Assembly: GCF_026625745.1 (NCBI RefSeq)
Contig: NZ_CP113061.1
Location: 1,761,501-1,825,500, forward strand
Reading direction: 5' to 3'
DNA: 64,000 bases
DNA from: Asticcacaulis sp. SL142
GTDB taxonomy: Bacteria > Pseudomonadota > Alphaproteobacteria > Caulobacterales > Caulobacteraceae
In this document: positions 18,488-51,268 of the stretch, one piece after another
Position numbering within the stretch: position 1 is the first letter of the stretch
How the letters are laid out: each line of letters begins with the position of its first letter
Position numbers and translations under genes: made by a program
The notes under the pieces: model-generated
The model's database searches: none
Told to the model about the DNA's origin: nothing
Seen by the model: only the letters and a program-made list of their open reading frames with translations

Positions 18488-18503
18488 ATGGTAGCGATAT
18501 CAT
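18488..18503. promoter_or_regulatory. Degenerate LacI-type operator, TonB receptor promoter
   Basis: ATGGTAGCGATATCAT fits the ATGRYAGCGCTRYCAT motif with one core mismatch (A in place of C). It lies 41 bp from the better copy at 18529-18544, close to four helical turns, so two repressor dimers could bind on the same face. Confidence 0.5.
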
Positions 18504-18528
18504 AATATCAATGAGAAGCTACTAAAGA

Positions 18529-18544
18529 TTGACAGCGCTGCCAT
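18529..18544. promoter_or_regulatory. LacI-type (XylR-like) operator, TonB receptor promoter
   Basis: TTGACAGCGCTGCCAT, with the AGCGCT core intact and TGAC/GCCA arms. It matches TGnnAnCGnTnnCA, the general form of LacI-family operators. Same motif as the sites at 33529, 38663 and 51040. Confidence 0.7.
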
Positions 18545-18797
18545 AAAAATATGCGATGCTGACGCAAAAGTCACACAAATAGTCCGTAAAAAAGATTTTA
18601 AGCGTAAAGTTTTGACCATTGTGTCAATTTTACACACTCTTGCGGGCCTCATTTTTACTATTTGTTATAAAAATATGACTTGACCAGGCGTTAAGAAGCA
18701 GCGCTTTGTCGCAGCAACAAGCCCGGCCGGGACAAAAGCGCTGCATCTACCGCTTTCAGCTCTACAAGGCCGCTGAGTCGTCAATACCCAACTGTTA

Positions 18798-20276
18798 GTG
18801 AGTCCTGCCTTGAAGATACTTCGCCGCCGTCGTACCAAAATTGTCGCCACATTGGGCCCTGCCTCCTCGAACCCCGAAATGCTCCAGCAGTTGTTTCAGG
18901 CCGGTGCCGATGTTTTCCGCCTAAATTTCTCCCACGGCAGCCACGAAGATCACGGCCGCAATATCGATCTGATCCGCGAGCTTGAGGCGCGCACCAAGCA
19001 CCCGATCGGTATTCTGGCTGACGTTCAGGGTCCGAAACTGCGGGTTGGCCGCTTCATGGGCGGTGCCATCGTTCTTAATAATGGTCAGACGTTCCGGCTG
19101 GATCTGAATCCGACACCGGGCGATTCCCGCCGTGCCAACCTGCCACATCCTGAGATTATTGCCGCGGCCCAGATCGGCTCGCACCTGCTGCTCGATGATG
19201 GCAAGCTGAAACTCAAAGTCACCCACGTCCGCGAAGACCATCTCGAAACCGTGGTCATTAACGGTGGCCGCCTCAGCGACCGCAAGGGCGTCAACGTCCC
19301 CGACGTGGTGCTGCCGATCCCGGCCCTGACCAAAAAAGACCGCGAAGATATGGCATTCGCCCTGGAACGCGGGGTTGAATATATCGGCCTGTCGTTCGTT
19401 CAACGCCCCGAAGACGTGCTCGAAGCGAAAGAAATCATTAAAGGCCGGGCATGGGTGCTTTCCAAGCTGGAGAAACCGCAAGCGCTTGATAATTTGGAAG
19501 AAATCATGGCGCTGTCCGATGCCGTCATGGTCGCCCGCGGCGACCTTGGGGTCGAACTGCCGCCCGAAGAAGTGCCTCTGGCGCAAAAGCGTATTATCCA
19601 GTCGGCGCGCATGATGGGTAAGCCGGTGGTCGTGGCAACCCAAATGCTGGAATCGATGATTTCCGCGCCGACCCCTACCCGCGCCGAAGCGTCGGACGTC
19701 GCCACCGCCGTATTTGACGGTGCCGATGCCGTCATGCTGTCGGCTGAAACCGCCGCGGGCCAGTTCCCGATCGAGGCCGTAACCATCATGGACCGCATTG
19801 TCGCTCGCGTTGAAACCGACGAGGGCTGGCGCGCCAACACCGATCGCCGTCGTCCAGAGCCTGAAAAAACCACGTCCGGCGCCATGGCCGCCGCAGCCCG
19901 TCAGGTCGCGCAAACCATTGACGCGTCGGCGATTGCGGCCTTGACCAACTCGGCCTCAACGGCGCTTCGGGTAGCGCGCGAACGTCCGAACGTGCCGATC
20001 TTAGGTCTGACGCCGAATATAGAAACCGCCCGCCGTCTGGCCATCACCTGGGGCGTGCATGCCACGACCGCGCCCGTGACCCATTCGATGTCGGAAACGG
20101 TCGCCGTCGCCACGCAATTGGCGCGTACCGAAGGCATATCCGAAGTGGGCGAAAATATCGTTATCGTCGCGGGTATGCCGTTTGGAAAATCAGGCTCAAC
20201 CAATGCCCTGCGGGTCGCCAAGGTCACCCGCACCCATGCACCGGAGCCTGAATTTATTGCGGATCCTAAAGTTTAA
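18798..20276 (+). CDS. pyk: Pyruvate kinase
   Basis: About 492-residue glycolytic enzyme converting phosphoenolpyruvate and ADP to pyruvate and ATP. Visible motifs are TKIVATLGPASS at the N-terminus, FRLNFSHGSHEDH, VMVARGDLGVELPPEEVPLAQK (catalytic and metal-binding region) and DAVMLSAETAAGQFP. The length is normal for the family. The start is uncertain: GTG at 18798 or TTG at 18810, with no ATG and no strong Shine-Dalgarno sequence. It is a stand-alone unit ending at a strong hairpin, and is probably housekeeping rather than part of the glycan locus. Confidence 0.93.
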   Translation: MSPALKILRRRRTKIVATLGPASSNPEMLQQLFQAGADVFRLNFSHGSHEDHGRNIDLIRELEARTKHPIGILADVQGPKLRVGRFMGGAIVLNNGQTFRLDLNPTPGDSRRANLPHPEIIAAAQIGSHLLLDDGKLKLKVTHVREDHLETVVINGGRLSDRKGVNVPDVVLPIPALTKKDREDMAFALERGVEYIGLSFVQRPEDVLEAKEIIKGRAWVLSKLEKPQALDNLEEIMALSDAVMVARGDLGVELPPEEVPLAQKRIIQSARMMGKPVVVATQMLESMISAPTPTRAEASDVATAVFDGADAVMLSAETAAGQFPIEAVTIMDRIVARVETDEGWRANTDRRRPEPEKTTSGAMAAAARQVAQTIDASAIAALTNSASTALRVARERPNVPILGLTPNIETARRLAITWGVHATTAPVTHSMSETVAVATQLARTEGISEVGENIVIVAGMPFGKSGSTNALRVAKVTRTHAPEPEFIADPKV

Positions 20277-25029: not shown

Positions 25030-25036
25030 GGGTCGG

Positions 25037-31931: not shown

Positions 31932-33368
31932 TCAGTGCTTTTTCCAGAGACCTTCGATGGCCTCCAGGGTCTTGCCCTTGGTTTCAGGCACGAATTTCCA
32001 CACGAATATTGCCGCCAGAACCGAACACGTCCCATACACATAGAACGAGAAACCGTGGTTAAACAAGGCGATCAGGGTCGAGTTACCGTCCATCATCGGG
32101 AAGGTCTGAGACACGATATAGTTGGCGATCCACTGGGCCGCGACCGCAATCGACATGGCCGTGCCCTTGATCGAGTTCGGGAACATTTCGGCCAGCAGCA
32201 CCCACACAATCGGCCCCCACGACAGGGAGAACCCGGCGATATAGACGATAGCCGTCACCAGGAAGATCATGCCCTGTTGGTGGGTCTGGTACAGATAGCC
32301 CAAGAAAAACAGCGACACGGCCATGACCACGGCGCCGAGGATCAACAGAGGCTTACGCCCCCAGTTATCGACGGTGAACAGGGCGATAATGGTGAACACC
32401 ACCATTGCCACGCCCATTATGACGGTTTGCAGCATGGCGGCATTGGTTTCCATGCCGACATTCTTGAACATACTGGGGGCATAATAAAGCACGGCATTAA
32501 TGCCCACGACCTGTTGAAAGACCGACAGCAGGATACCAACCACCAGAACGCCTGCCCCGAACGAGAACAGCTTACCCGAATGGTTGACCAGACTGCCGCG
32601 GATTTCAACCATGGTGGCCTTGGCCGTATCCGGGTCGTTCAGTTCATGCAGCAGTTTTTCAGCCTTGGCCTCATGGCCCTTCATCATGTACCAGCGCGGG
32701 GTGTCCGGCATCAGGAAGGCCGCCGTCAGGAACAGAGCGGCCGGAATAGCGCACGAGGCCAGCATGTAGCGCCAGCCGAGCGCGTGAATCCAGGTGTCGT
32801 CGCCATTACCGGCTTCGGCGATTTTCATATTGACGAAATAGACCAGCGTAATCCCCACAACGATGGCGATCTGTTGCAAAGACACCAGCAACCCGCGGTG
32901 CTTGGCGGGGGCAATTTCCGCGATATACATCGGCGAAATCAGCGACGCCATACCGATCGCGATCCCGCCAAAGACGCGGTAGATCATATAGGGCCACAGG
33001 GTATCGACGCCCAGTGTGCCCATCGGGGCGATAAAGGTTTCCGGAAAGCCCGACATAATGGACGATACGAAAAACAGAGCGGCGGCAATCATCATGCCGA
33101 CCCGGCGGCCAAACTTGGTCGCTAGTGGCCCTGCGATGGCTGAGCCGATCACGCAGCCCAGCAGCGCAATACCGACCGCCAGACCGTGAAAAAAGTTCTT
33201 TTGGGTTTCATCCCATGCCATATTCGGCAGGATGTAGTTATGCTTGATTGAGGCTTCCGCACCCGAAATAACGGCGGTGTCGTAGCCGAACAAAAGGCCC
33301 CCCAGAGCGGCACCGATCGCCAGCCCCATGACAAGCCCCATATTCACCTTAGCCAGTGACGAGGTCAT
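31932..33368 (-). CDS. xylE: D-xylose:H+ symporter of the MFS sugar porter family
   Basis: 478-residue, about 12-TM sugar porter. It has GGLLFGYDTAVISGA, the loop motif GRRVGMM, the inter-domain PDTPRWYMMKGHEAKAEKLL, QQVVGINAVLYYAP (sugar site), DNWGRKPLL and VPETKGKTLE at the C-terminus, all as in E. coli XylE/GLUT relatives. The position beside xylD and an operator 161-176 bp upstream support D-xylose. In Caulobacter the equivalent gene is also the last of the xyl operon. Confidence 0.88.
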   Translation of the reverse strand: MTSSLAKVNMGLVMGLAIGAALGGLLFGYDTAVISGAEASIKHNYILPNMAWDETQKNFFHGLAVGIALLGCVIGSAIAGPLATKFGRRVGMMIAAALFFVSSIMSGFPETFIAPMGTLGVDTLWPYMIYRVFGGIAIGMASLISPMYIAEIAPAKHRGLLVSLQQIAIVVGITLVYFVNMKIAEAGNGDDTWIHALGWRYMLASCAIPAALFLTAAFLMPDTPRWYMMKGHEAKAEKLLHELNDPDTAKATMVEIRGSLVNHSGKLFSFGAGVLVVGILLSVFQQVVGINAVLYYAPSMFKNVGMETNAAMLQTVIMGVAMVVFTIIALFTVDNWGRKPLLILGAVVMAVSLFFLGYLYQTHQQGMIFLVTAIVYIAGFSLSWGPIVWVLLAEMFPNSIKGTAMSIAVAAQWIANYIVSQTFPMMDGNSTLIALFNHGFSFYVYGTCSVLAAIFVWKFVPETKGKTLEAIEGLWKKH

Positions 33369-36301: not shown

Positions 36302-36324
36302 TGCTCCCACCTTGCGTTTTTTTA

Positions 36325-36499
36325 GAACTCCCCCTGTTGCAGGGGGAGCTTGATGGCGATGCCTGCATCGGCATCAAGAGGGGGGAATCCGGCACGGACA
36401 TTACCCCCACCACCACATCTCGCCTTCGGCTCGTGCGGCCTCCTCCCCGGCGCATTTTAGTGCGCTACCGCTGCGCTGCTTGAGCGCAATTGGGGAGGT
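36325..36499. repeat. Modular hairpin repeat, copy R1 (inside the xyl operon)
   Basis: Outer hairpin GAACTCCCCCTGTTGCAGGG...AGCT (from 36325), an inner hairpin with arms TTGATGGCGATGC (36350-36362) and GCATCGGCATCAA (36365-36377), then AGAGGGGG, a CCCCCACCACC block, a CCTCCTCCCC stretch, and a closing GGGGAGGT near 36499. It has the same order of parts as R3 and, inverted, R2, but with an unrelated inner hairpin. It fills most of the gap between xylB and xylC and could affect expression of the genes downstream. Confidence 0.7.
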
Positions 36500-36558
36500 A
36501 TATTTTCTTTCCACCGAAAATGTATTGGCGCACCGCGCCAAACTTTTCGGTGAAATCC

Positions 36559-37308
36559 CTAGCGCCATCCCGCGTCGATCCAGTAGCCATGTCCGGTGCA
36601 CAGCGACGCATCGTCCGACGCCAGAAACAGCGCCAGAGACGCCACATGCTTAGGCTCGATCCGACCCGGCAAGCATTGCGATTCGACGATCTGGCGCTCA
36701 CCTTCGGGGGTGTACCACTTCATCTGGCGCGGGGTTTTGACATTGCCCGGAATGATCGAGGTGACGCGGATATTGTCGGGACCAAGCTCACGCGCCAGCG
36801 CGCGGGTCATGCCCTCGATGCCCGCCTTGGCGGTCTCATAAAGCACCAGATCGGGCAGACCTAAGTGCCAGGAGATCGAGCCAAAATTGATGATCGCGCC
36901 CCCACCCGCAGCCTTCATGCCCGGTGCAATGACGCGCGTCGTCATGGCCAGATGCTTGAGGTTAACAGCGATGTTCTTATCGAAAAATTCCGAGGTCACT
37001 TCCGACAGGGTGTGACGGTCATCGCGGGCGGCATTGTTCAGCAGAATGTTAACCGGCCCATCGGCCAGAACGGCGGCCAGCGCGGCTTCTAAGGCCGGGG
37101 TGTCGGTCAGATCGCACTTATAGAATGTGGGGGCTACCCCCAGCACGCCGGTATCGAGCGTGGCCGATACCTCATCGACCAGATCGATAAAGTGAACGCG
37201 CGCGCCTTGCTGCACAAAGGCCGTCACAAGGCCCGCCCCGATGCCGGAACCGCCGCCCGTGATGAGTACTTTTTTACCTTTAAGGCTTGGATAGATTGCC
37301 GACGACAT
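36559..37308 (-). CDS. xylB: D-xylose 1-dehydrogenase (NAD+, SDR)
   Basis: 249-residue short-chain dehydrogenase converting D-xylose to xylonolactone. It begins MSSAIYPSLKGKKVLITGGG and contains GGGSGIGAGL, INFGSISWHLGL, the YETAK catalytic pair, REGP-like ARELGPDNIRVTSIIPGNVK, and ends CTGHGYWIDAGWR. From memory these stretches are nearly the same as Caulobacter crescentus XylB, making this one of the surest calls in the window. Second gene of the operon, 34 bp after xylX. Confidence 0.95.
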   Translation of the reverse strand: MSSAIYPSLKGKKVLITGGGSGIGAGLVTAFVQQGARVHFIDLVDEVSATLDTGVLGVAPTFYKCDLTDTPALEAALAAVLADGPVNILLNNAARDDRHTLSEVTSEFFDKNIAVNLKHLAMTTRVIAPGMKAAGGGAIINFGSISWHLGLPDLVLYETAKAGIEGMTRALARELGPDNIRVTSIIPGNVKTPRQMKWYTPEGERQIVESQCLPGRIEPKHVASLALFLASDDASLCTGHGYWIDAGWR

Positions 37309-37342: not shown

Positions 37343-38539
37343 TTACGCGACCGCGTCGTGCGGCTGTACTTTTTTGGTATTCAGCAGGCCGCGACCGGCC
37401 AGATTTTGCATCAGGTCAACAATGCCGTAGGCCCACGGTGCCGCGTCTTTCGAGGTCACCACGCGGTTGGTAAGGGTGCCAAGCTTTGGCGACGATACGC
37501 TGACGATATCGCCGACCTTATGGGTGAAACCACGGCCCGGAACGTCACGGTCCTGGGTTGGGGCAAATAGCGTGCCCATCATCAGGATAAAGCCATCGGG
37601 ATATTGATGCTCACTCAGGGTCTGGCGCACCAGTTCCAACGGATCGCGGCTGATCTCAGTCATGCTCGACTTGCCCTTAAGCACATAGCCTTCAGGGCCG
37701 GTGATATCGAGATCAAGCTTGGCCTGACGGACATCGTCAATGCCAAACGTGTCGTCAAACATGCGGATGAACGGCCCAAGGCCGGTCGAAGCGTTATTGT
37801 CCTTGGCCTTACCCAGCAGCAGCGCCGAACGACCTTCAAAGCAGCGCAGATTGACATCGTTGCCGAGCATGGCCCCAACCGGACGGCCCTTGGGATCGAC
37901 CACCAGAACCACTTCGGGTTCGGGGTTGTTCCAGGTCGAATCCGATCGAATACCGACTTCGTCGCCCCAACCGATCGATGACAACACCGGCCCCTTGGTG
38001 AACACTTCGGCGTCCGGGCCAATCGCCACTTCGAGATATTGCGACCACATGCCATCGGCAATCAGGGCATCTTTCAGCTTGGCGGCATCTTGGGACCCCG
38101 GCACGACCGAGCGGATATCGGCCCCGATACGCTCTTTCAGGGCATCACGGATGCCTTGCGCCTTATCGGCATCGCCGCGGGCGCGCTCTTCGATGACGCG
38201 CTCAACCGCCGACACAGCGAAGGTGACCCCGGCTGCCTTGACGCATTGCAGATCAATCGGTGACAGCAGTTTGTCTTTAGATGCCTCACCCGACCATGTG
38301 GTCGTGAAGTTAAAGCCTTCGAGGTCACCGAGCAGTTTCCCGCCGCTGGGCGCACCCTTTTCAGGCCACACCGCCATCAGTTGCGCCACGGTCGGCGCCA
38401 CCGGCGTCATGTCATAAACCTTACCACCGCGCACCATAACCGGCGTCGGGCCTTCCGGCAGAAGGATGCGTCCGATCAGGGTTGCGTCGCGCCAGTCCTG
38501 CGGAAGGGCGCTGATCAGGCTGTGGTCGGCATTTGGCAT
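37343..38539 (-). CDS. xylX: 2-keto-3-deoxy-D-xylonate dehydratase (FAH family)
   Basis: 398-residue fumarylacetoacetate-hydrolase-fold protein of the long pentonate type. It has TFAVSAVERVIEERARGD (acidic/metal region), SWNNPEPEVVLV with the metal-binding Glu pair, GNDVNLRCFEGRSALLLGKAK and LMMGTLFAPTQDRD. It should convert 2-keto-3-deoxy-xylonate to 2-oxoglutarate semialdehyde. The start at 38539 is chosen over 38602 because family sequence begins there. First structural gene after the xylR-like gene, with an operator 124-139 bp upstream. The length and neighbours argue against the shorter hydrolase of the fucose pathway. Confidence 0.9.
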   Translation of the reverse strand: MPNADHSLISALPQDWRDATLIGRILLPEGPTPVMVRGGKVYDMTPVAPTVAQLMAVWPEKGAPSGGKLLGDLEGFNFTTTWSGEASKDKLLSPIDLQCVKAAGVTFAVSAVERVIEERARGDADKAQGIRDALKERIGADIRSVVPGSQDAAKLKDALIADGMWSQYLEVAIGPDAEVFTKGPVLSSIGWGDEVGIRSDSTWNNPEPEVVLVVDPKGRPVGAMLGNDVNLRCFEGRSALLLGKAKDNNASTGLGPFIRMFDDTFGIDDVRQAKLDLDITGPEGYVLKGKSSMTEISRDPLELVRQTLSEHQYPDGFILMMGTLFAPTQDRDVPGRGFTHKVGDIVSVSSPKLGTLTNRVVTSKDAAPWAYGIVDLMQNLAGRGLLNTKKVQPHDAVA

Positions 38540-38662
38540 GGCCTTGTTTTTCCTCAATTTTTCTTGTGCGCATTTGGGCAAAACGCACACACTCAACGTC
38601 ATGGCGGATCTGGCATTTTTGCCAAAACCGTCAAAATTGAACGCGCCGTTAGCTTTTACGCC

Positions 38663-38678
38663 ATGATAGCGCTACCAT
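38663..38678. promoter_or_regulatory. LacI-type (XylR-like) operator upstream of xylX
   Basis: ATGATAGCGCTACCAT. It is very close to the recalled operator core of the Caulobacter xylX promoter (GTTAGCGCTACCA). It lies between the xylR stop codon and the xylX start. The same 235-bp gap holds a second small inverted repeat, TGGCATTTTTGCCA at 38611-38624, of unknown role. Confidence 0.8.
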
Positions 38679-38774: not shown

Positions 38775-39827
38775 TCAGGTATCACTTACCGCAGCCGACG
38801 ATTGGCGCTCAATCAGGGAGAAATCCCGGATTTCACGGATCGGCGTATAGGACACGCCGGTACGCTTGGCCCGGATCTGATCCAGCAACAGTTTAAGCGC
38901 CAAAGCCGACATGTCCGAGATCGGCTGACGCACCGTCGTCAGTTCCGGCCAGACCATGGTCGCCATGGCCGTGTCATCGAATCCCACGATCGAGACCTGC
39001 GACGGAACGTCCAGACCCAGCCGATGGGCGGTCGCCACGGCCCCTGCGGCCATATCATCGTTGGAGGCGAAAATCGCCGTTGGCCGTTCCTCACGCCCCA
39101 GCAGGGTTTCGGCGGCATCAAAGCCGGAGCGATAGGTGAAATAACCCTGCACCACATCCGAATCGTCAACCTCAAGCCCGGCCTTGGCCATGGCCGCCAC
39201 AAAGCCGTCATAGCGAAGCTGGCTGCCGTAGTTATTCGGGTGCCCCTTGATGAAGCCGATCCGGCGGTGCCCCAGCGCGATCAGGCGCTTAGTCATCGAA
39301 TAGGCGGCCTTATAGTCGTCAATACTGACCGAGGTTATATCCGGTGAGGGCCGCGCCGTCGCCACGCCCACAAACGGGATATTGAGATCCTTAAGCGCCT
39401 TGGCCACGCGCGTTGAATCCGACAGGGGTGCGGGCAAGACAACTCCGTCTGTGCCGGTGGATTTCAACTTCTCAATCGCCGACGCCGCCCCTTCGGGGCC
39501 GTCACAGCTTTCAATAGTCAACTGGCAACCGCTCTGGGCGCTTTGCTCAAGGATGCCTAACAAAAACTCGCTGAGATAGGCTGAGGACGGGTTGGAATAC
39601 AAAAGCGCCACCCGCGCCACATCCTGCGTCGCCAGACTGCGCGCCGCCATATTCGGCGAATAGTTGAGCGCCTCAACCGAGGCCAGTACCTTTTGACGGG
39701 TTTCCTCACGCACATTTTTTTCGCCATTGATGACCCGCGACACGGTCATGGGCGATACGCCCACATGACGCGCCACATCATGAATAGTCACTATATTGCC
39801 GCCGCGACGCCCGACTTTTCTCGCCAA
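38775..39827 (-). CDS. xylR: LacI family repressor, XylR-like
   Basis: 350-residue LacI-type repressor. The N-terminal helix-turn-helix and hinge are IHDVARHVGVSPMTVSRVIN and LNYSPNMAARSLAT (about 13-67), followed by a periplasmic-binding-protein-like sensor domain with GHRRIGFIKGHP and PTAIFASNDDMAAGAV. It appears to start with TTG at 39827, seven bases after AGGGGA. It is encoded directly upstream of xylX, as a local repressor would be, and is the best candidate to bind the AGCGCT palindromes in the window. Its inducer is probably D-xylose. Confidence 0.88.
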   Translation of the reverse strand: MARKVGRRGGNIVTIHDVARHVGVSPMTVSRVINGEKNVREETRQKVLASVEALNYSPNMAARSLATQDVARVALLYSNPSSAYLSEFLLGILEQSAQSGCQLTIESCDGPEGAASAIEKLKSTGTDGVVLPAPLSDSTRVAKALKDLNIPFVGVATARPSPDITSVSIDDYKAAYSMTKRLIALGHRRIGFIKGHPNNYGSQLRYDGFVAAMAKAGLEVDDSDVVQGYFTYRSGFDAAETLLGREERPTAIFASNDDMAAGAVATAHRLGLDVPSQVSIVGFDDTAMATMVWPELTTVRQPISDMSALALKLLLDQIRAKRTGVSYTPIREIRDFSLIERQSSAAVSDT

Positions 39828-40111: not shown

Positions 40112-42301
40112 ATGGTACGGGAAGGTTTAATTGCGGCTGGGGTCTCGGCCGCCATGTTAGCGCTCACATCAATCAGCCTGGCGCAAACCCCAGCGCCCGC
40201 CCCTAAACCGGCCACGGCACCGGTCTATGCCTGGCAAAATGTCGAAATCCTGGGCGGTGGCTTTGTACCGGGCGTGGTGTTTCATCCGACCGAAAAGGGC
40301 CTGGTCTATGCCCGCACTGACATTGGCGGGGCCTATCGCTTTGATCCCGTAGCTGGCCGTTGGGTCCAGATGCTCGATTTTCTGGGCAAGGCCGATTCGC
40401 AGCTTTATGGTGTGCTCTCGATCGGTCTCGATCCCCAAAAACCTGATCGCGTTTATCTGGCCGCCGGTGAATATCTCGGCGGCAATGCCCGTAAAGGCGC
40501 GATCCTGATTTCCAAGGATCGCGGCAAGACCTTCACCAAGACCGAACTGCCGTTCTGGCTGGGCGGCAATGCCGATGGCCGCTCTACCGGTGAGCGCCTT
40601 GTGGTCGATCCGAAAAACCCGCAAACCCTGTGGCTGGGCACCAGCCGCGACGGCCTGTGGCGCAGCGAGGATGCAGGTCTGACGTGGACAAAGACTGCCC
40701 TGCCCGCCGACCATATCCTGTGGGCACTACCGGACGGTAAAGGCAGTCTCTATGCCGGTGCGGAGGCCAGGGACGGCAAAAGCCTTTATGTCTCAAAGGA
40801 CGGCGGCACCTCATGGGCGGCGGTTTCGGGCACACCCAAGGGCCTGATGCCCCACCACGCGGAATTCGATGCGGGCGGCAAGTTGTTCCTGACGTTTTCG
40901 GATAGTGTCGGCCCCAACGGCGTCAAGGACGGCGCGGTCAAGACCTATGATCCGACTACCGGCAAATGGGACGACATCACCCCGCTTAAGCCCACAGCGG
41001 AAACCTTCGGCTATGCGGGCCTGTCGCTGGACAGGCAAAAACCCGGCACGCTGGTGGTCTCGACCCTTAACCGCTGGGGTTCAGGCGATGAGATTTTCCG
41101 CTCGACCAATGGCGGCAAATCGTGGACGCCGCTCAGCAAAAAATCGACATTCGACACATCCCAAGCCCCATGGTTACTGCCCTATGCGGGCGGCAGCCAT
41201 GACCACCTCGGCCACTGGATCGGCGATATCGATATCGATCCGTTTGATTCCAGCCGGGTGTTCTACGTCACTGGCTATGGCCTGTGGGAAAACCGCGAAT
41301 TGGCCAGCTTTGATACCGGTTCAAAGCTCAACTGGCGCTTTACCAATCAGGGACTGGAAGAAACCGCCGTTCTGGAACTGGTCTCGCCACCGGTGGGCGC
41401 ACCCGTGTTTTCGGCGCTGGGCGATATCGGCGGGTTCCGCCATGACGACCTGACCTCGGCCCAGAATTCGACCTATTTCCATCCCAATGGCGTCCACACG
41501 CGCGGCATGGATTTCGCCGAGGCCAAGCCCAGCCTGATCGTGCGCACCTCCGACCGGCCGCCGTTTGGCTATTATTCCGAAGATGGCGGAAAGACCTGGA
41601 CCGGCTTTGCGTCACGCCCCCCCACCGTCACCGGCACTGATTACCAGACTATGGGCATTGGGGTATCGGCAGACGGCGCGTCGTGGGTGTGGATGCCCGC
41701 CAAGTCTGAGCCCTATGTGTCTACCGACAAAGGCCAGACCTGGGTCAAATCGACGGGCGCACCGGTCAACAGTGAAAGCCATATCTTCCCGATTGCCGAC
41801 CGGGTGAACCCTAAGAAATTCTACCTTTATGATAACCGCAAAAAGACGGTCTATGCCTCCGAAGACGATGGGTTGACGTTCAAGGTCGCCACAATGAGCG
41901 CCGTCGATTGGGGCGGACGGATGAGGGCCGCTCCCGGCCATGAGGGCCATCTTTGGGTCGGCGGCTGGAACGCGCTTAATGTCTCCGATGACGGCGGCAA
42001 GACCTTTTCCACTCTGCCCGGTTTTCAGGAAGCCTGGTCGGTAGCCTTTGGCAAATCGGCTCCGGGTGAAACCTATCCGGCCCTGTTTGTGTGGGGTAAG
42101 CTTAATGACCGCGAAGGGCTTTATTTCTCATCCGATCTGGGGGCACGCTGGGTCAGGCTGACCACGCCGTCAAAGCAGTTCGGCTCGATCCGCGGCGTCA
42201 TGGCGGGCGACCCCAAGGTGTTTGGCCGACTCTATATCGGCACGGATGGTAGGGGTGTATTGTATGGTGATTTCAAACTGCCGGAAGCGGCCAATAAATA
42301 G
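40112..42301 (+). CDS. GH74 endo-xyloglucanase
   Basis: 729-residue secreted enzyme. The signal peptide ends near SISLAQT, followed by tandem seven-bladed propellers. At least eight Asp-box turns are visible, such as SKDRGKTF, SEDAGLTW, STNGGKSW, SEDGGKTW and SDDGGKTF. The GH74 catalytic Asp is in ARTDIGGAYRFD (about residue 70) and the second in GDIDIDPFDSSRV (about 371). It hydrolyses the beta-1,4-glucan backbone of xyloglucan. It heads an operon with the esterase (9-bp gap) and fucosidase genes. No carbohydrate-binding module is present. Confidence 0.92.
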   Translation: MVREGLIAAGVSAAMLALTSISLAQTPAPAPKPATAPVYAWQNVEILGGGFVPGVVFHPTEKGLVYARTDIGGAYRFDPVAGRWVQMLDFLGKADSQLYGVLSIGLDPQKPDRVYLAAGEYLGGNARKGAILISKDRGKTFTKTELPFWLGGNADGRSTGERLVVDPKNPQTLWLGTSRDGLWRSEDAGLTWTKTALPADHILWALPDGKGSLYAGAEARDGKSLYVSKDGGTSWAAVSGTPKGLMPHHAEFDAGGKLFLTFSDSVGPNGVKDGAVKTYDPTTGKWDDITPLKPTAETFGYAGLSLDRQKPGTLVVSTLNRWGSGDEIFRSTNGGKSWTPLSKKSTFDTSQAPWLLPYAGGSHDHLGHWIGDIDIDPFDSSRVFYVTGYGLWENRELASFDTGSKLNWRFTNQGLEETAVLELVSPPVGAPVFSALGDIGGFRHDDLTSAQNSTYFHPNGVHTRGMDFAEAKPSLIVRTSDRPPFGYYSEDGGKTWTGFASRPPTVTGTDYQTMGIGVSADGASWVWMPAKSEPYVSTDKGQTWVKSTGAPVNSESHIFPIADRVNPKKFYLYDNRKKTVYASEDDGLTFKVATMSAVDWGGRMRAAPGHEGHLWVGGWNALNVSDDGGKTFSTLPGFQEAWSVAFGKSAPGETYPALFVWGKLNDREGLYFSSDLGARWVRLTTPSKQFGSIRGVMAGDPKVFGRLYIGTDGRGVLYGDFKLPEAANK

Positions 42302-42310
42302 GGGGATATC

Positions 42311-44248
42311 ATGCGGGCTTTATTGATGGCCATTGCGACCTTGAGTGTAGCGGCTCCGGCAGAGGCGCAGGTCGCTTTTGACCATATCTTCAACGACCAT
42401 GCCGTTTTGCAACGGGACACGCCGGTTAAGGTTTGGGGCCGAGCGGCTGCGAACGCGCCGGTCACGGTTGAACTGGCAGGCGCGTCGGTACCTGTAACCG
42501 CCGACGCCAAGGGTGAGTGGGCGGTGACCCTGCCCGCCACCAAGGCCGGTGGGCCATACACCCTTAAGGCCACCAGCGGTTCTGCGACCACAACCCTGAA
42601 CGATGTCGTCATGGGCGATGTCTGGCTGTGTTCGGGCCAATCGAACATGGAATTTCAGACCAAATACGCCACCAATGCCTATAACGAGATCCAGAACTCG
42701 GCCAATCCTGATATTCGCTTTGTGACGGTCGATCGGAATGCACAACCAAACCCGCTGGACACCTTGCCCAAGCGCCTTGAGTGGCGCGCAGTCGGGCCGG
42801 AGACAACCGGCGATACCTCGGCGGTGTGCTATTACATGGCCAAGGCACTGCAAAAAACCCAAAACGCCCCCATCGGCATGATCCATTCGTCATGGGGCGG
42901 TACCACCATTCAGTCGTGGATGTCCGAGCCTGCCCTGCGCGATCTGAAAACCTATGATCAGGGCCTTGAGACCTTGAAAACCTACAGCCGCGATCAGGCT
43001 CGCGCTAAAACCGAGTGGCAGGCGGTCATGCTCGACTGGTGGCAGGCCAATGAACCTGACGCCAAGCTTAAGGCGACCTGGGCAACGCGCGATTTCGACG
43101 ACCGCGACTGGGACACAATCACCGCCAATGGCTTCTGGGAAAGTGCAGGCAAGCCGGAGCTAACCTATTTCGACGGGGTGATCTGGTACCGCGGCTCGGT
43201 CACGCTGACAGCCGCACAGGCAAAACAGGCCGCCACGATTGAACTCGGCCCCGTAGATGACGGCGACACCACCTTTGTCAACGGCAAGGTCGTCGGGGCG
43301 ACCGAAAGCTGGAACGCGCCGCGCACCTACGCCATCCCCAAGGGGACGCTTAAGGCCGGTAAAAACGTCATTGCCGTCCGCGCCTATGATTCCGGCGGGG
43401 GCGGAGGATTGTGGGGCAAGCCCCAAGACCGGCGCATCGCCTTTGCGGACGGATCGAGCATCACCCTGCCCGCCCAGTGGAAATATAAGGTCTCGGCCCC
43501 GCTGTCGGCGCTTAAAAATTCACCCACGACACCGTGGCTTGCGAACAGCGGCCTGACCAACCTTTATAATGGTATGATCGCCCCAATTGCGCCTTACACC
43601 CTCAAAGGGGCAGCGTGGTATCAGGGCGAGGCCAATGTCTCACAGGCTGCCGAATATGCCCGCCTGCTGCCCGCAATGATTAAGGATTGGCGCAGAGCAT
43701 TCGATGCCCCTGACCTGCCGTTTCTGGTCGTGCAACTGGCCAATTTCGGGCCAGTGGCCAAGTTGCCAGTACAATCGGCATGGGCCGAACTGCGCGAAGC
43801 CCAGCGTCAAACCGTTAATAATGATTCGAAAACCGGACTGGCCGTCACCATAGATATTGGTGACCGCGTCGATATCCACCCGACCCAAAAAAACGTGGTG
43901 GGGCAGCGTCTGGCACTGGCGGCGCGCAAAGTCGCCTATGGTGAGGCTGTCGTCTCCGGTGGCCCGCAGCCGGTGACCGTCGTGCGCAGCGGCACCGATA
44001 TCGTCATCACCTTTGATGCCGCACTCAGAGCCTATTCCTCGGCTCAGGCCATCGGGTTTGAAGTGTGTGATGCGGCCAAAACCTGCCGGTTCACGGCCAC
44101 CGATGTGTCGGGCATGACCGTCACGCTCAAAGCCGCCAATACACCGCAGGCCAAATTCGTGCGCTATGCCTGGGCCGACGCACCCTATGTTAATCTCTAT
44201 TCCGACCAGGATCTGCCCGCTATTCCGTTTGAAGAGGCCATTCCATGA
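42311..44248 (+). CDS. Sialate-O-acetylesterase-like carbohydrate esterase
   Basis: 645-residue SGNH-type esterase. Signal peptide (cleavage near PAEAQ), an N-terminal beta domain, then the nucleophile block WLCSGQSNMEFQ, IHSSWGGTTIQSWM, an inserted galactose-binding-like jelly roll (about 245-385, with WYRGSVTLTAAQ), WYQGEANVS, and the catalytic Asp-His in DRVDIHPTQKNVVG. Nothing points to sialic acid here. Removal of acetyl groups from acetylated xyloglucan side chains fits the neighbours. The stop codon overlaps the fucosidase ATG by 4 bp. Confidence 0.87.
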   Translation: MRALLMAIATLSVAAPAEAQVAFDHIFNDHAVLQRDTPVKVWGRAAANAPVTVELAGASVPVTADAKGEWAVTLPATKAGGPYTLKATSGSATTTLNDVVMGDVWLCSGQSNMEFQTKYATNAYNEIQNSANPDIRFVTVDRNAQPNPLDTLPKRLEWRAVGPETTGDTSAVCYYMAKALQKTQNAPIGMIHSSWGGTTIQSWMSEPALRDLKTYDQGLETLKTYSRDQARAKTEWQAVMLDWWQANEPDAKLKATWATRDFDDRDWDTITANGFWESAGKPELTYFDGVIWYRGSVTLTAAQAKQAATIELGPVDDGDTTFVNGKVVGATESWNAPRTYAIPKGTLKAGKNVIAVRAYDSGGGGGLWGKPQDRRIAFADGSSITLPAQWKYKVSAPLSALKNSPTTPWLANSGLTNLYNGMIAPIAPYTLKGAAWYQGEANVSQAAEYARLLPAMIKDWRRAFDAPDLPFLVVQLANFGPVAKLPVQSAWAELREAQRQTVNNDSKTGLAVTIDIGDRVDIHPTQKNVVGQRLALAARKVAYGEAVVSGGPQPVTVVRSGTDIVITFDAALRAYSSAQAIGFEVCDAAKTCRFTATDVSGMTVTLKAANTPQAKFVRYAWADAPYVNLYSDQDLPAIPFEEAIP

Positions 44249-45879
44249 CCCCCACCCGTCGCGATCTTCTGGCCTCCGGTTCGGCGCTGACTGCCGCCGC
44301 AATGGCACCTGCCGTCCAAGCTAAACCCGTCAAATTCAAACCGACCTGGGAGTCTTTGTCTGAGAACTATCAGACCCCGGAATGGTTTAAGGACGCCAAG
44401 CTCGGCATCTGGGCGCACTGGGGGCCGCAGTGCGTGCCGGAGGCCGGCGACTGGTATGGCCGCCAGATGTATATGCAGGGCAATCATTATTACGATCACC
44501 ACGTCAAACACTATGGTCACCCCAGCAAAACCGGCTTTATGGAGATCATTGGTCAGTGGCGCGCCGAAAAGTGGGAGCCGGAAAAACTGATCCAGCTCTA
44601 TAAGGCGGCGGGCGCGAAATATTTCGTGGCTATGGCCAATCACCACGACAACCTCGATCTGTTCGATTCCAAATATCACGCCTGGAACAGTGTCCGCGTC
44701 GGCCCAAAAAAGGATATTGTAGGTACTTGGGAAAAGCTGGTGAAGGCGCAAGGGTTGCGCTTTGGCGTCTCCAATCACTCGGCCCATGCTTGGCATTGGT
44801 GGCAGACGGCCTATGGCTATGACGCCGAGGGGCCGATGCAGGGCGTGCGCTATGACGCCTTCCGCCTGACCAAAAAAGACGGCAAGGGCACATGGTGGGA
44901 GGGCCTCGACCCGCAGGAACTTTATACCGGCCCGGCCGAGGGCATGGTCCCGCCCGATGGCATTACCTCCATCAAAGACATGCAGGCGTTTAACGACAAG
45001 ACCTCCGGCGACTGGACCGAAGCTCAGCCGAAGAATAACCCCTATTACGCCAAGCAGTGGCTCGCTCGTCAGAACGACCTGATGGATAAGTACAAACCCG
45101 ATTTTGTCTATATGGACAACTATGTCACGCCACTAGCCGGTGTCGGGCTTGAGGCCACCGCCTATTTCTATAACCAATCCACCAAATGGCACGGCAAAAA
45201 CGAAGCTGTGGTGACTGGTAACAAATTGGATGCCACTCAGGCCAAGGCCCTGACCAACAATGTCGAGCGCGGGGCGTCGGCCTACCTGCGGCCTGAATAC
45301 TGGCAGACCTGCACCTGCATTGGCAACTGGCACTACGACCGCGCCCTTTATGAGCGCGATGGCTATAAATCGGCCAAGCAGGTTATCCAGTTGTTGATCG
45401 ATGCGGTCTCAAAGAATGGCAACCTGTTGCTGTCGATTCCGATTCGCGGCAATGGGGAAATCGACGAGAAAGAAGTGGCGATCCTTAAGGACATGGCGGC
45501 GTGGATGGCCGTCAATGGCGAGGCTATCTTTGGCACCCGCGCCTGGCATACTTTTGGCGAAGGCCCAACCGAAGTCGGCGCCGGTCACCAGAACGAAGCC
45601 GCTGCCAAACCTTTTACCGATAAGGATATTCGCTTCACCACCAAGGACGGCGCGCTTTATGCGCTGGCTCAGGACTGGCCCGAAGGCGGGCAGATGCTCA
45701 TAACCACGTTCGCAAAAAATACGCTCACTTCCAAAGCCACTATTGAACGTGTCGAACTTTTGGGTATAGCTCAACCTCTGGAATTTGAATTGTCTCCAGA
45801 CGGACTAAATGTGAAACTGCCCGCTCAGCGTCCGGCCGCAACGCCGGTGCTGAAAATCACCGGCCAGACTCTGGTTTAG
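44245..45879 (+). CDS. GH29 alpha-L-fucosidase
   Basis: 544-residue exported glycosidase with a Tat-like signal (TPTRRDLLASG, cleavage near VQAKP). GH29 features are WFKDAKLGIWAHWGPQCVP, YFVAMANHHDNLDLF, FGVSNHSAHAWHWW, and the nucleophile Asp in PDFVYMDNY (about residue 290). A C-terminal beta-sandwich follows (about 440-540). It would release the terminal L-fucose from fucosylated xyloglucan, which links the polymer genes to the L-fucose operon at 23.7-30.1 kb. The exact linkage preference cannot be read from the sequence. Confidence 0.9.
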   Translation: MTPTRRDLLASGSALTAAAMAPAVQAKPVKFKPTWESLSENYQTPEWFKDAKLGIWAHWGPQCVPEAGDWYGRQMYMQGNHYYDHHVKHYGHPSKTGFMEIIGQWRAEKWEPEKLIQLYKAAGAKYFVAMANHHDNLDLFDSKYHAWNSVRVGPKKDIVGTWEKLVKAQGLRFGVSNHSAHAWHWWQTAYGYDAEGPMQGVRYDAFRLTKKDGKGTWWEGLDPQELYTGPAEGMVPPDGITSIKDMQAFNDKTSGDWTEAQPKNNPYYAKQWLARQNDLMDKYKPDFVYMDNYVTPLAGVGLEATAYFYNQSTKWHGKNEAVVTGNKLDATQAKALTNNVERGASAYLRPEYWQTCTCIGNWHYDRALYERDGYKSAKQVIQLLIDAVSKNGNLLLSIPIRGNGEIDEKEVAILKDMAAWMAVNGEAIFGTRAWHTFGEGPTEVGAGHQNEAAAKPFTDKDIRFTTKDGALYALAQDWPEGGQMLITTFAKNTLTSKATIERVELLGIAQPLEFELSPDGLNVKLPAQRPAATPVLKITGQTLV

Positions 45880-46251: not shown

Positions 46252-49122
46252 TTACCGCTTCACGGTCACAGCCTTGCCCGTATAGGTCACGGTCCGGTCG
46301 GCTGCGTCAAAGTCGGTGGTTTTGCCACCGTCCTTGATAAAGCGGACCTTGAACGTGCGGTTGGCCACCATGCCCTTATAGCTGCCCGAACGCGCCCCGA
46401 TCTTCAGTTCGCCGGTCTTGTCGTTATAGGCAAACGGGATACGGCTGAACTGCCCCTTGATGTAGGCATTGGAGACACCGTCATCTTCATAGAGGCTATA
46501 GCTGCCGTCGGCGCCGGTATAGACGTTGAGGGTCAGCGGTGCGTCCGGTGTTTCGTCGACATACTGCATGACCGGCCCCATAGGCACGATCGCACCGGAT
46601 TTGACAAACAGCGGGATCTGATCGAGCGGCGCGTCAACCGTGATCGTCTGACCGCCTGTGGTTTTCGCGCCGGTATAGGCATTATACCAGTCAGCGCCCA
46701 TCGGCAGGTAGACACTGCGCGACGTCGCCTGATACTTCGTCACCGGAGCGACCAGGATCGACTTGCCGAACATATACTGGTCGTTGACGTTCTTAGCCTT
46801 GGCGTCCGTCGGGAAATCAAGGGCAAAGCCGCGCATAATCGGCGCCGAAGTATAGTGGCTGTCGGCCGCCGCCGAATAGATATACGGCATCAGGCGGTAG
46901 CGCAGTTCCAGGAACCACACCATGTTGGCGCGCATGGGCGAGCCTTCGGGCGAGATTTCGTGGATTTCCCGCTTCACCCCTTCGCCGTGTGAGCGCATCA
47001 GGGGGCTAAACGTCCCGAACTGCCACCAGCGCTGGTTCAGCTCACGCCATTCTTTCAGGTCTTCGGCGGTGCCAGTGCCGCCAGCGGCACGGTTCTCTTG
47101 GAGCCCACCGACATCGCTACCCTGAAAACGCGTTTCCTGCGCATAACCACCGATGTCGTGCGTCCAGTTGGGCACGCCGGAGAAGCCCGTCTGCACACCG
47201 GCTGAGATCTGATCGAACAGGTTGTCCCAGGTGCCGACGACATCGCCCGACCACAGGGCCGCCGCGTTGCGTTGCACACCGGCAAAACCTGAGCGGGTCA
47301 GGATGAACTGGCGCGTATCGGGCTGATCGACCTTGAGGCCGTCATACATGGCCTGCGTGTTCATGGTGGCATAGGCATTGTGAACCAGAGCGCCCGGCCC
47401 CATCTGGGTCGGGGTGATCAGTTCAGCGAACTCTTCCGGTGAGGTATTTGAGCGGACGTCAGGCTCGGTATTGTCCATCCACCACGCATCGAAGCCATAT
47501 TTCACCAGACCTTCTTTCATCTGGCGGTAATAGATGTCGCGGGCTTCTTTGTTATAGGGCGAATAGTGGCTGTTGAGATAGCCCGGGCCGACCCAGTCCT
47601 TATAGCCCAGTTCGACGTTCTTGGTCCACATATAGCCCTTGGCTTCGAACTCCTTATAGTTATCAGTGTTCGGATAGTACTTGCCCCAGATCGAAATCAT
47701 GATGCGGGCGTTTTGCTTATGGACCTCATCGACCAGCTTTTGCGGATCGGGGAAGCGAATGGGGTCGAACTTGTGGCTGCCCCATTGATCCTGCGGCCAG
47801 TAGAACCAGTCCTGCACGATGTTGTCGATCGGCCATTTGTTGTCGCGGTAGGTTTTGAGCACGCCCAGCAACTGATCCTGGGTCTCATAGCGTTGACGCG
47901 ACTGCCAGAAGCCGTAGGCCCATTTCGGCATCATCGGCGGGGTGCCGGTGACATGATGATAACCGCCGATCACGCCTTCGATATCTTTGCCCGCGATGAA
48001 ATAGTAGTTCAGGCCCGTGCCTGCCTCAGAGGTAAAGCGCAGCGAGTGCTTATCGGCATCGGGTTCCGGGTTGGAGTGATGCAGGGAGATCAGGCCGCCT
48101 GACGGCTCCCATTCGAGGCTGAGCGGAACCGGCTTACCGGCCTCAAAGCTCTGCTCGAAATTGTTGTACCAGGCATTCCAGCCCATGCGCCAGATATCAT
48201 GATCAAACAGGGTCTTGCCGTCGACTTTGAGGATCGCATAGTCAGACGCAAACAGGCGCATCTTATGCACGCCCGGTTGGTCGGACGTCATGGTGCCTTC
48301 CCAGACGACCTTGACCTTTTTGCCTGTCGTGGCTTCCTTGGAAAGTGCCGCGTCTTTCGGCCAATATTTGTCGACATCGCTCAGGAACTGGTAGCGGATA
48401 TCCGGCTCGCTGCGGGTCAGAATCAGCTTACCGTCGACATAGTACTTGGCGGTCAAACCGGCCTTGCCGTCCAGCCCTTGCAATTTAAGGTCGCGGCTGG
48501 CCAGACCGAAGCGGATCGGGTTACCAAAGCGTGTGACCGAGTTGTTGTCCCACAGGATGCCGTAGTTCATGTCGGAGACGACAAACGGAATGCCGATGTC
48601 CATATTGTGCTGGCGCAGTTCGACATCTTCGCCGTTCAGGTTCATCTGGGCGTTCTGGTGCTGGCCCAGACCGTAGAAAACCTCAGACGTACCCTTATTG
48701 AACTGGGCATGGGTCGCGACATAGGGCTTACCCTCAACCATAACCGGCTTGATGTCGGCCTTGGCCTGCGTCAGCAGTGTCTTGCCGCTGGCGTCCTTGA
48801 AGGTTATCAGCCCGCTTTTCAGGGACACCACGGCCTTGGCCTTACCGGCATCAAGCGTGACGGTATCGGCAGCACCAGTGACCGTGAACTTGCCTTCGGG
48901 CTTGGCCATCGCCATCAGGGATTCGATCTGCGGGCGGGCCGGACCATCGACCGCCAGTACATGGATGATCGAGTCGTTAATGACCTCAAGGCGCACTTCC
49001 TTGGCGGGGCCCGCATCAGGCTTGACCACAATGCCGGTCGCTGTTTTTTCAAATGAGCCAGCAAGCGTCGTGCTGGCCATCAGTAATGCGACAAACGCCG
49101 GAGCATAGATAAATGGTTTCAT
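46252..49122 (-). CDS. GH31 alpha-xylosidase with PA14 insert
   Basis: 956-residue exported glycosidase (signal peptide ending near TTLAGS). The N-terminal beta-sandwich is interrupted by a PA14 domain (about 225-375, with GLTAKYYVDGKL and HKMRLFASDYAILKVDGK). It is followed by the GH31 barrel with MPKWAYGFWQSRQRY, the nucleophile Asp in FDAWWMDNTEPD (about 550) and DIGGYAQ. A PA14 insert in GH31 is typical of xyloglucan alpha-xylosidases such as the Cellvibrio enzyme. It would remove non-reducing-end xylose. It lies 20 bp after GH35 in a two-gene operon. Confidence 0.9.
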   Translation of the reverse strand: MKPFIYAPAFVALLMASTTLAGSFEKTATGIVVKPDAGPAKEVRLEVINDSIIHVLAVDGPARPQIESLMAMAKPEGKFTVTGAADTVTLDAGKAKAVVSLKSGLITFKDASGKTLLTQAKADIKPVMVEGKPYVATHAQFNKGTSEVFYGLGQHQNAQMNLNGEDVELRQHNMDIGIPFVVSDMNYGILWDNNSVTRFGNPIRFGLASRDLKLQGLDGKAGLTAKYYVDGKLILTRSEPDIRYQFLSDVDKYWPKDAALSKEATTGKKVKVVWEGTMTSDQPGVHKMRLFASDYAILKVDGKTLFDHDIWRMGWNAWYNNFEQSFEAGKPVPLSLEWEPSGGLISLHHSNPEPDADKHSLRFTSEAGTGLNYYFIAGKDIEGVIGGYHHVTGTPPMMPKWAYGFWQSRQRYETQDQLLGVLKTYRDNKWPIDNIVQDWFYWPQDQWGSHKFDPIRFPDPQKLVDEVHKQNARIMISIWGKYYPNTDNYKEFEAKGYMWTKNVELGYKDWVGPGYLNSHYSPYNKEARDIYYRQMKEGLVKYGFDAWWMDNTEPDVRSNTSPEEFAELITPTQMGPGALVHNAYATMNTQAMYDGLKVDQPDTRQFILTRSGFAGVQRNAAALWSGDVVGTWDNLFDQISAGVQTGFSGVPNWTHDIGGYAQETRFQGSDVGGLQENRAAGGTGTAEDLKEWRELNQRWWQFGTFSPLMRSHGEGVKREIHEISPEGSPMRANMVWFLELRYRLMPYIYSAAADSHYTSAPIMRGFALDFPTDAKAKNVNDQYMFGKSILVAPVTKYQATSRSVYLPMGADWYNAYTGAKTTGGQTITVDAPLDQIPLFVKSGAIVPMGPVMQYVDETPDAPLTLNVYTGADGSYSLYEDDGVSNAYIKGQFSRIPFAYNDKTGELKIGARSGSYKGMVANRTFKVRFIKDGGKTTDFDAADRTVTYTGKAVTVKR

Positions 49123-49142
49123 AATCGTCTTCCCTGTATCGT

Positions 49143-50810
49143 TTAATAGGTAGCGAGTTTGATTTTAAGGACAGCCGGTTCCCCGGTCAGATTAAGGCCG
49201 TAGTCGGTCTGATCGCCGTTCCAGACGAAATCTACCACCCACTTGCCGTTTTCAAAATGGCCCTGCTCCACCGCGCGGAAGATCAGGTTCTTACCTTTTT
49301 GCTTGTCGCCCACGCCAAAATTGAGGCGGGCATGGACGCCAGTAACCAGAAACTCGTCTTCGGACAGTTGCGCGATGACGATACCGCCATTGGGCTTCTC
49401 ACGGCCCGGCACCGGATCGATCTTACCCAGCCAAGCCCATTCGGTCAGGCCAAACTGCCACTCACCGTACATGACATCGACCTTCCACTTGCCGCCAAGG
49501 TCAATCGACTGCGGCTTGCGGTCGTCAGCTTCGGCCACACCCCAGACCGGCTTTTCCCAGGCGATTTTCGCCCAGTCGCGCATCATCGGCGCAAACAGGG
49601 CATACTTTTCGCGGAAAGGCTTCAACCCCTCATAGGTGATGTCTTTGCCGCCCAGCGGATAGTTGGTGTAGCCGGTATAGTCGATGCCGAAGGGTGAAAA
49701 CCCTATCCCGCCACGGCCCAGCACGCTAAAAATATAGCGGGCAAACTCGCTGTCAGAGCCTGTTTCCGGTACGAACAGCGGATTGTTATGCTTTGAATAG
49801 TGGTTAAGGGCGGCCTCGTAATTGGCCGAGTCGCGCTTATAGATATCGGGGGCTACGATATCGATGGCCGGGGCCGCCGCCTGATAGATATCAATGACAT
49901 TGTGGGTTGGCCCGCCCGACGAATAGGTCTCCGGCCCGACATCAAGCAAAGGCTCACGCAGGGCTGCGTTCACAAACATCGGCAGGTCATAGACCTTGCG
50001 TCCAGCTTCTGCGATCTCGTTGATGTAGCTGGCGATATACCAGGCGTGGAAATATTCATCAGCGTGCTTACCGAATACGTCCGCCCACGTCCCACCCTTA
50101 GCGATACCCTTCTTTTTCAGAAGCGCGTGAGGCACCTGACCAGCGAACACCTTCTCGGCCTTGGCCGAATAGTCACGCACCGAACCATAGGTGCCGCTCT
50201 CATTCTGCGGCTGGATCATGATGACCGTGTGCTGATCGCCGTCGATCTTTTTCAGGTGCGTCATCAGGGCGACGAAAGCCTTTTTGTCGGCCTCCAGCGT
50301 CGTGCGCTCCATCGGCGACAGGCAGTAGGACATGGTGCCGTCTTTTTTGGTGATGCGCGGGAAGCGCTTATTGTCCAGCTTCACCCAGTCCGGCGTATAG
50401 TTGGGCGAGGTATTCTTCCACGTCCCGAACCACAACAGCACCAGCCGGACATTGTTCGCGCGGGCTTGCTTAACCAGTTCATCGACATAGGAAAAATCGA
50501 ACTGACCTTCTTTGGGCTCGATCTGCTCCCACGCCACCGGAATCTCCAGCGTATTGGCGTGGATGTCCTTCAATGCTGGCCAGACCTTGGGCAGTTGCGA
50601 CGGATAGTTGGACGAATTATTGGCCTGCGCCCCCAGGATCAGATAGGGCGCACCGTCGACAAATAAAGCGGCCTTGCCATTCTTTTTTTCAATACGCGGC
50701 AGCTCATTCGCGACCTGCGCCAGTGTTGGCATTGCCGACGACACCACCATCAGGCTAGCACAGGCGCCCATCAGAAAACGACGCGTCAGCTTTGCGTGTG
50801 CGGATATCAT
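49143..50810 (-). CDS. GH35 beta-galactosidase (Bgl35A-like)
   Basis: 555-residue exported enzyme with an N-terminal signal ([13 protein letters not shown], cleavage near PTLAQ). GH35 features are [20 protein letters not shown], the acid/base Glu in [12 protein letters not shown] (about 201) and the nucleophile Glu in [12 protein letters not shown] (about 349). The C-terminal beta domain resembles DUF5597 found in xyloglucan-specific beta-galactosidases. It would expose xylose for GH31 by removing galactose. An operator palindrome lies 230-245 bp upstream, giving the GH35-GH31 pair its own xylose-responsive promoter. Confidence 0.88.
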
Positions 50811-51268
50811 ACTGAATTTCCGGTTACCCGGCTCCCTCTGAAGTCATCATTTGTTTGCCGGGAATATACGCCAAGCGTGCGCCAGCGTCATGCGCCGCGC
50901 TCTCAGCCGCAAGTGGGATGTCCCTTCACCATCTCTTCCCGATGTTTGCCCTTGCCGCGGTATTATTTATTTGGCACGCGGTGAGCTATTTTATCTTACA
51001 AATTTGTGTATCATCAAAAATTGAAACAGCAAGTCAAAATTGATAGCGCTATCATTGAAAAGCGTGTCCAATAGGGGAAGTTCACGAAATTGAGTGGCCG
51101 GGGGAGGCAGAACCGTTCCTGAAAAACCTGCGCCTTGGCAAAAAATGTGTGTTTGCAGCCATTTAAACTGGACAAAATCACCGTTTTTTGCCGATTAAAG
51201 GTAACCGTCCACAATTTCATATATAATGACTCCCGCCAAGCGAGCATAAAAAGGCAAGGTAGAGAAAC
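50811..51268. other. Divergent regulatory region, 458 bp
   Basis: Between GH35 (leftward) and the GntR gene (rightward). It contains the perfect operator palindrome at 51040-51055 and a TATAAT hexamer at 51222-51227 that could serve the GntR gene. No convincing ORF. Confidence 0.6.
51040..51055. promoter_or_regulatory. LacI-type (XylR-like) operator upstream of GH35-GH31
   Basis: TTGATAGCGCTATCAT: the central 14 bases TGATAGCGCTATCA form a perfect palindrome, the most symmetric copy in the window. It is a LacI-type sequence, not the TGGTnnnACCA form of FadR-type GntR proteins, so it is unlikely to be a site for the neighbouring GntR regulator. Confidence 0.78.

Follow-up and report, generated by a model that had tools for sequence, protein, structure and literature searches.

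Two classes of LacI-type operator among the xylose and xyloglucan genes of Asticcacaulis sp. SL142 suggest two related repressors

Introduction

A stretch of 64,000 nucleotides of the Asticcacaulis sp. SL142 genome (positions 1761501-1825500 of the 3.706-Mb single-contig genome, G000; hereafter the window) carries five LacI-type palindromes, which are dispersed among a TonB-dependent receptor gene, xylose catabolic genes and xyloglucan hydrolase genes. Are all five read by a single xylose repressor, as the initial annotation had proposed? Our comparison of the sites across 25 Asticcacaulis genomes suggests, with a probability of about 0.7, that two related LacI-family repressors with look-alike operators, here XylR and GluR, share the region.

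Results

The pattern ATGRYAGCGCTRYCAT, with up to two mismatches, occurs at exactly five places in the 64-kb window against 0.36 expected, and none of 100 shuffles reached five (largest count, two). The palindromes annotated at 18488, 18529, 33529, 38663 and 51040 are all present there, far above chance. The statement that only the first is mismatched holds for the 14-bp core; against the 16-mer as originally written, those at 18529 and 51040 each have one mismatch as well (first base T). All five do lie between accepted genes, as had been stated, in a window of which about 9% is intergenic according to a simple gene caller. A mechanical 325-aa ORF (51014-51991, minus strand) covers 51040; it has no Pfam match and a negative codon-use score, and it overlaps the GntR gene.

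Across the genome, the strict pattern TGNYARCGYTRNCA has 24 sites against three for the reversed control. Outside genes lie 22 of the 24, a figure that includes five sites inside ORFs of 83-325 aa that we judged spurious; the two genic sites are in a 188-aa ORF and within the first codons of tpiA, which was missed by the gene caller and recognised by eye from its N-terminus. The motif is therefore not equally common in coding regions, and the sites withstood this check. The placement figure covers the strict sites only; when up to two mismatches were allowed, there were 84 genomic matches against 29 in the control. Over the 25 Asticcacaulis genomes, TGNYAGCGCTRNCA gave a summed 347 matches against 49 in the control, counts that are not independent events since the genomes are related. 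Start codons were set mechanically, so that distances to starts are approximate.

Across the 25 genomes, the operators fell into two classes, told apart by position 4 of the operator (the fourth base of each half-site). We built an XylR matrix from the xylX sites of 19 genomes and a GluR matrix from the zwf sites of 15, and at this position the first has T (T-A sites) and the second C (C-G sites); the own genome and the four relatives nearest to it (G005, G008, G014 and G020) were kept out of the training. The operators at 38663 upstream of xylX (38664..38677, TGATAGCGCTACCA; XylR 24.1, GluR 5.6 bits), at 51040 (51041..51054, TGATAGCGCTATCA; 23.6 and 13.0 bits) and at 18488 (18489..18502, TGGTAGCGATATCA; 17.4 and -0.2 bits) scored as XylR-class, whereas the operator at 18529 (18530..18543, TGACAGCGCTGCCA) and its reverse complement at 33529 upstream of xylE (33530..33543, TGGCAGCGCTGTCA) both scored 18.7 bits with the GluR matrix and 8.8 bits with the XylR matrix.

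The same promoters carry sites across the genus. An XylR-class site was found at xylX in 24 of the 25 genomes (19 training sites and five new ones; the other genome has none), and sites like it also occur in Caulobacterales and sphingomonad loci. At the best GH35 match, 21 of 24 genomes have an XylR-class site, alone in 20 and together with a GluR-class site in one; of the three misses, two (L184 and L186) do hold a T-A site, which falls shortly after the called start. At the zwf-gluR loci of the Entner-Doudoroff pathway (n = 21), all 63 strict sites are GluR-like, 15 of them being training sites and 19 being hybrids (TGACAGCGCTATCA) that lean to GluR by only 3.6 bits; zwf is preceded by a strict site in the own genome, as it is in 19 of the 20 other loci. 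GluR-like sites mark pyk in 18 of 25 genomes. Where pyk lies away from the receptor gene (n = 15), 11 sites are GluR-like, two are T-type or hybrid (that of G009 is T-type) and two genomes have none; where it adjoins the receptor gene (n = 10), seven intergenic regions hold a C-G site, and in those of G006, G007 and G018 we found no C-G site, only a T-A site.

The split between XylR and GluR operators is not absolute, as the hybrids show. The hybrid TGTTAGCGCTGTCA, present at sucC of the own genome and at pyk of G021, is XylR-like by about 4 bits; the sucC copy (genome position 2631169, upstream of sucC, from our test of sucABCD) leans towards XylR by 4.1 bits. The 14-mer TGATAGCGTTATCA, which occurs in eight GH35 and seven receptor promoters of relatives and also upstream of gap in the own genome, has an XylR lead of only 4.2 bits. 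Among the 24 strict sites of the own genome, the GluR matrix leads by more than 3 bits at 12, and the XylR matrix leads by more than 10 bits at eight and by 4-6 bits at four, the last being those at a GPH transporter gene with GH94, at gap, at the LacI gene L101 with a receptor gene, and at sucC. Of the eight sites with a strong XylR lead, six stand next to genes of xylose, xylan or xyloglucan breakdown (xylX, GH35, GH3, MFS with GH43, a GH3/GH10 pair, and GH43); the remaining two lie at a pair of PL11-type lyase and TonB receptor genes and at a hydroxyproline-type locus. An XylR-class site, TGTTAGCGCTATCA at L133:7338 (genome position 3443337), has a GntR gene and a locus of the hydroxyproline-epimerase type next to it. 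An MFS gene at L128:8102-9370 (genome positions 943101-944369), which adjoins an XylR-class site and GH43, was called in two pieces of 242 and 173 aa, and the search with this gene used the first piece only.

The xylose genes form a Weimberg-type operon that adjoins a LacI-family gene. It contains xylX (37343..38602, minus strand; FAA hydrolase family by Pfam and placed by its position in the operon), an xylB-like SDR, an xylC-like SGL lactonase and an xylD-like dehydratase (33621..37308, minus strand; Pfam and NCBIfam), xylE for a D-xylose transporter (31932..33368, minus strand; NCBIfam NF007484 above cut-off) and an aldose epimerase gene. No xylA (aldehyde dehydrogenase, KGSADH) was found in the operon (31932-38602), and none of the nine Aldedh matches in the genome lies at a T-A site or in the hydroxyproline-type locus.

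The class of the xylE site varies within the genus: 21 of the 25 genomes have an XylR-class site only, the own genome, G014 and G005 have a GluR-class site only, and G024 has both, so that the T-A site is present in 22 genomes and missing from three. The C-G site of these three aligns with that of G024. The XylE of G020 is 99% identical, yet this genome has the T-A site and lacks the C-G site. Two overlapping terminator-like hairpins, one per strand, lie between xylD and xylE (33580-33605; two against 0.6 expected); if they are real, xylE would need its own promoter. Scans for E. coli-type promoters gave no match in the intergenic regions upstream of the receptor gene and xylE, one match at xylX (0.3 expected) and three at GH35 (0.7 expected). 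Several of the sites are more than 200 bp from called starts, outside the range of -140 to -30 into which over 75% of LacI-family sites fall in the excerpted text of PMC4052901.

The xyloglucan enzymes GH74, GH31, GH35, acetylesterase and fucosidase are all encoded together in the window. An operon for GH74, a CE20-like acetylesterase and a GH29 fucosidase (40112..45879, plus strand) was assigned from Pfam and from solved relatives, which include xyloglucanases among the closest to GH74 and esterases such as 7kmm. The genes for GH35 beta-galactosidase and GH31 alpha-xylosidase (46252..50810, minus strand) have 3u7v and 7kmn (GH35-type) and 2xvg and 7kmp (alpha-xylosidases) as the closest solved relatives of their products, and the three best for GH31 are alpha-xylosidases. 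The operator at 51040 lies between GH35 and a divergent GntR/FCD gene (51269-51976, plus strand), which shares this intergenic region and had gone unmentioned in the initial annotation.

The set of five sites proved to be incomplete. A further XylR-class operator, TGTTAGCGCTCACA (40155..40168; XylR 17.5, GluR -1.3 bits), lies 43 bp inside the called GH74 ORF and is identical in G005, G008, G014 and G020. A site at the GH74 start scored at least 16.6 bits in all seven genomes seen with GH74 beside xylR, including G016 (16.6 bits, a hybrid) and G024 (17.0 bits). The operator at 40155 would bring the backbone enzyme GH74 into the predicted XylR set. A second further site of the XylR class, CGGTAGCGCTAACA (9910-9923), lies inside a ROK-family gene; it is kept in G005 and G020 and was not found in G008, and it is probably driven by the coding sequence. 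Separately, the genes at 22060-30141 (amidohydrolase, IclR, aldo-keto reductase, GD_AH dehydratase, SDR and MFS) resemble acid-sugar or L-fucose-type catabolism and would fit well with the fucosidase encoded among the xyloglucan genes, a fucose reading that comes from gene content only.

Both classes meet in the region between the TonB-dependent receptor gene (15065..18313, minus strand; TIGR01782, NCBIfam above cut-off) and the divergent pykA for pyruvate kinase (18798..20276, plus strand; Pfam PK and TIGR01064 above cut-off). The initial annotation had assigned the sites at 18488 and 18529 to the receptor gene and made no mention of pykA, which has this region in common with it. Among 20 genomes, the best receptor match has an XylR-class site only in five, a GluR-class site only in two, both in nine and none in four. 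Seven of the resulting 14 XylR-class sites lead by only 4.2 bits. Where both classes occur, they are 41 bp apart in seven genomes and 21 bp apart in two; five of the seven with the 41-bp spacing are close relatives, which leaves at most about four lineages. We considered whether the C-G site serves pykA alone, and found this insufficient, since GluR-like sites lie upstream of receptor genes in G017, G021, G022 and G023, where pyk is elsewhere. Next to the receptor gene are two tandem genes of the tryptophan-halogenase family (11926-14977).

The LacI-family gene beside xylX (38775..39827, minus strand; Pfam LacI and Peripla_BP_3), whose product we named XylR, encodes a protein that can be aligned with CcpA and PurR and has the recognition helix S-P-M-T-V-S-R. 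Its identity to three relatives from the Caulobacterales is 57-59%; the XylR of Caulobacter crescentus is CC3065. The own genome has 10 matches to the LacI-type HTH, nine of them above cut-off. The gene gluR (genome positions 3220192-3221271) is a LacI gene that follows zwf, edd, glk and eda at 1.4 Mb from the window and is preceded by TGCCAGCGCTGTCA, the same 14-mer that is found at the receptor gene in G005, G014 and G020. The GH3 gene that comes just after gluR has two GluR-like sites upstream (L125:11614 and 11800), which are kept in several relatives.

The two regulators differ in the residues that follow S in the recognition helix. XylR relatives have x-Met in 78 of 79 pattern matches from 80 loci (PM in 51, AM in 23 and other pairs in four; the exception is QP), a set that may extend beyond XylR orthologues, and GluR has Ile-Lys in 24 of 24 matches from 24 GluR loci. 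In the alignment, CcpA has Met-Ala and PurR has Thr-Thr at these two positions. In the Lac repressor, it is the residues at the start of the helix that read the corresponding part of the operator.

Discussion

Sites of two classes, conserved in the genus, thus stand beside sugar genes in the window, and regulators with differing recognition helices are encoded in the genome. We interpret them as the operators of two repressors because the matrices sort both the promoters of the genus and the sites of the window into two classes, because the recognition helices differ (x-Met in XylR and Ile-Lys in GluR), and because both classes coexist at the receptor gene in nine of 20 genomes and at xylE of G024. 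XylR is predicted to bind the T-A sites at 38663 (xylX operon), 51040 (GH35-GH31), 18488 (receptor gene) and 40155 (GH74-CE20-GH29) and to release them when xylose is present. GluR is predicted to bind the C-G sites at 18529, for pykA, the receptor gene or both, and at 33529 (xylE), and is proposed to release them in response to glucose. The binding, the repression and the effectors are inferred in each case. This interpretation is weakened by the hybrids, the 4.2-bit leads, the pyk regions of G006, G007 and G018 and the paralogs that share a Lys helix; by the xylE site, which is GluR-class in only four of 25 genomes and T-A instead in G020; and by the distance of several sites from starts (more than 200 bp) together with the empty promoter scans at the receptor gene and xylE.

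The occurrence of both operator classes at the receptor promoter in nine of 20 genomes suggests a two-input switch. With sites approximately four helical turns apart, or two in two relatives, the receptor promoter may respond to both of the sugars freed from xyloglucan. In its full form this proposal is tentative, and we give it somewhat less than an even chance: the promoter would be a conserved switch of XylR and GluR at a fixed spacing of 41 or 21 bp in up to four lineages, integrating xylose and glucose for an importer of plant polysaccharide by way of two sister repressors, with operators distinguished mainly by a single base pair in each half-site, and xylE would apparently have passed from XylR to GluR control in the genome of the window and two close relatives.

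The initial annotation had placed all five sites in one xylose regulon covering import, side-chain hydrolysis and catabolism. Its core, from the xyl operon to the side-chain hydrolases, is borne out by the XylR-class sites at xylX and GH35 across the genus and by further sites of this class at xylan-type genes; it is not supported for 18529 and 33529, whose matrix scores, with the zwf, gluR, GH3 and pyk targets of their class, speak against a place in a single regulon. It could be argued that one regulator is enough, with XylR accepting C at position 4 of the operator and so binding the whole set of five, since all share TGNYARCGYTRNCA or nearly so and lie by sugar genes, xylE itself encodes a xylose transporter, and hybrid T/C sites exist. 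We consider this unlikely: within the genus, zwf, gluR, GH3 and pyk carry GluR-like sites, the C-G form is absent from all 24 xylX promoters that have a site, both classes stand together at one promoter, and the recognition helices differ.

Another LacI paralog (L101, L103 or L104) might recognise the C-G sites, instead of or in addition to GluR, which we regard as improbable. These three proteins have Lys at the second helix position and share a helix ending in K-T-V-S-R, and the excerpts of PMC4052901 describe BglR paralogs of GluR for Caulobacterales; however, the 12-kb stretches around L103 and L104 have no strict-pattern site, and the site in the L101 stretch is AACGTT-centred. That the palindromes are chance matches or non-regulatory repeats is hardly credible, as the window shuffles, the reversed-pattern control, the placement outside genes and the genus-wide recurrence at the same promoters argue against it.

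If two repressors share the region as we propose, the promoters of a single pathway for plant polysaccharide may be divided, or held in common, between sister repressors whose operators are almost the same. The locus is also a natural setting in which to test the rule that this part of the operator is read by the residues at the start of the LacI recognition helix. A LacI-like palindrome is not by itself enough to identify its regulator, and a difference of one base between classes changes the predicted regulon.

The two regulators each belong to a known kind, as does the xyloglucan locus, and the interleaving of the operator sets is the new part; among the literature matches listed, none of the titles we saw concerned XylR or GluR sites of Asticcacaulis. 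As in C. crescentus and Xanthomonas, XylR is a LacI-family regulator of xylose genes. For Caulobacter, PMC7198004 describes a 14-bp operator of XylR at xylX, and the Xanthomonas xyl-box, given as TGGTAGCGCTAACA in excerpts of PMC7748154, is identical to the xylX site of eight of the 25 Asticcacaulis genomes. Different from these systems are the position of xylR directly upstream of xylX and the reach of the predicted regulon to the GH74/GH35/GH31 xyloglucan locus.

GluR (CC2053) is a LacI-family regulator of central carbon metabolism in Caulobacter, with zwf-pgl-edd-glk, pykA, sucABCD and others as its predicted targets and with release by glucose proposed; its gene lies downstream of the zwf operon and is preceded by a site (PMC4052901). 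Asticcacaulis matches this account in the LacI gene that ends the zwf-edd-glk cluster with its own site before it, and in the sites at zwf and pykA. It departs from the account, as far as the excerpts go, in having C-G sites also at the TonB receptor promoter, xylE and GH3, in a class that we defined from the zwf sites of the genus. The xyloglucan utilization locus of Xanthomonas, as given in part of PMC8245568, likewise comprises GH74, GH31, GH35, a CE20-type esterase, a fucosidase and TonB receptors; its fucosidase is GH95, in contrast to GH29 here, and the receptor of the window, a possible importer of xyloglucan oligosaccharides, is encoded approximately 22 kb from GH74.
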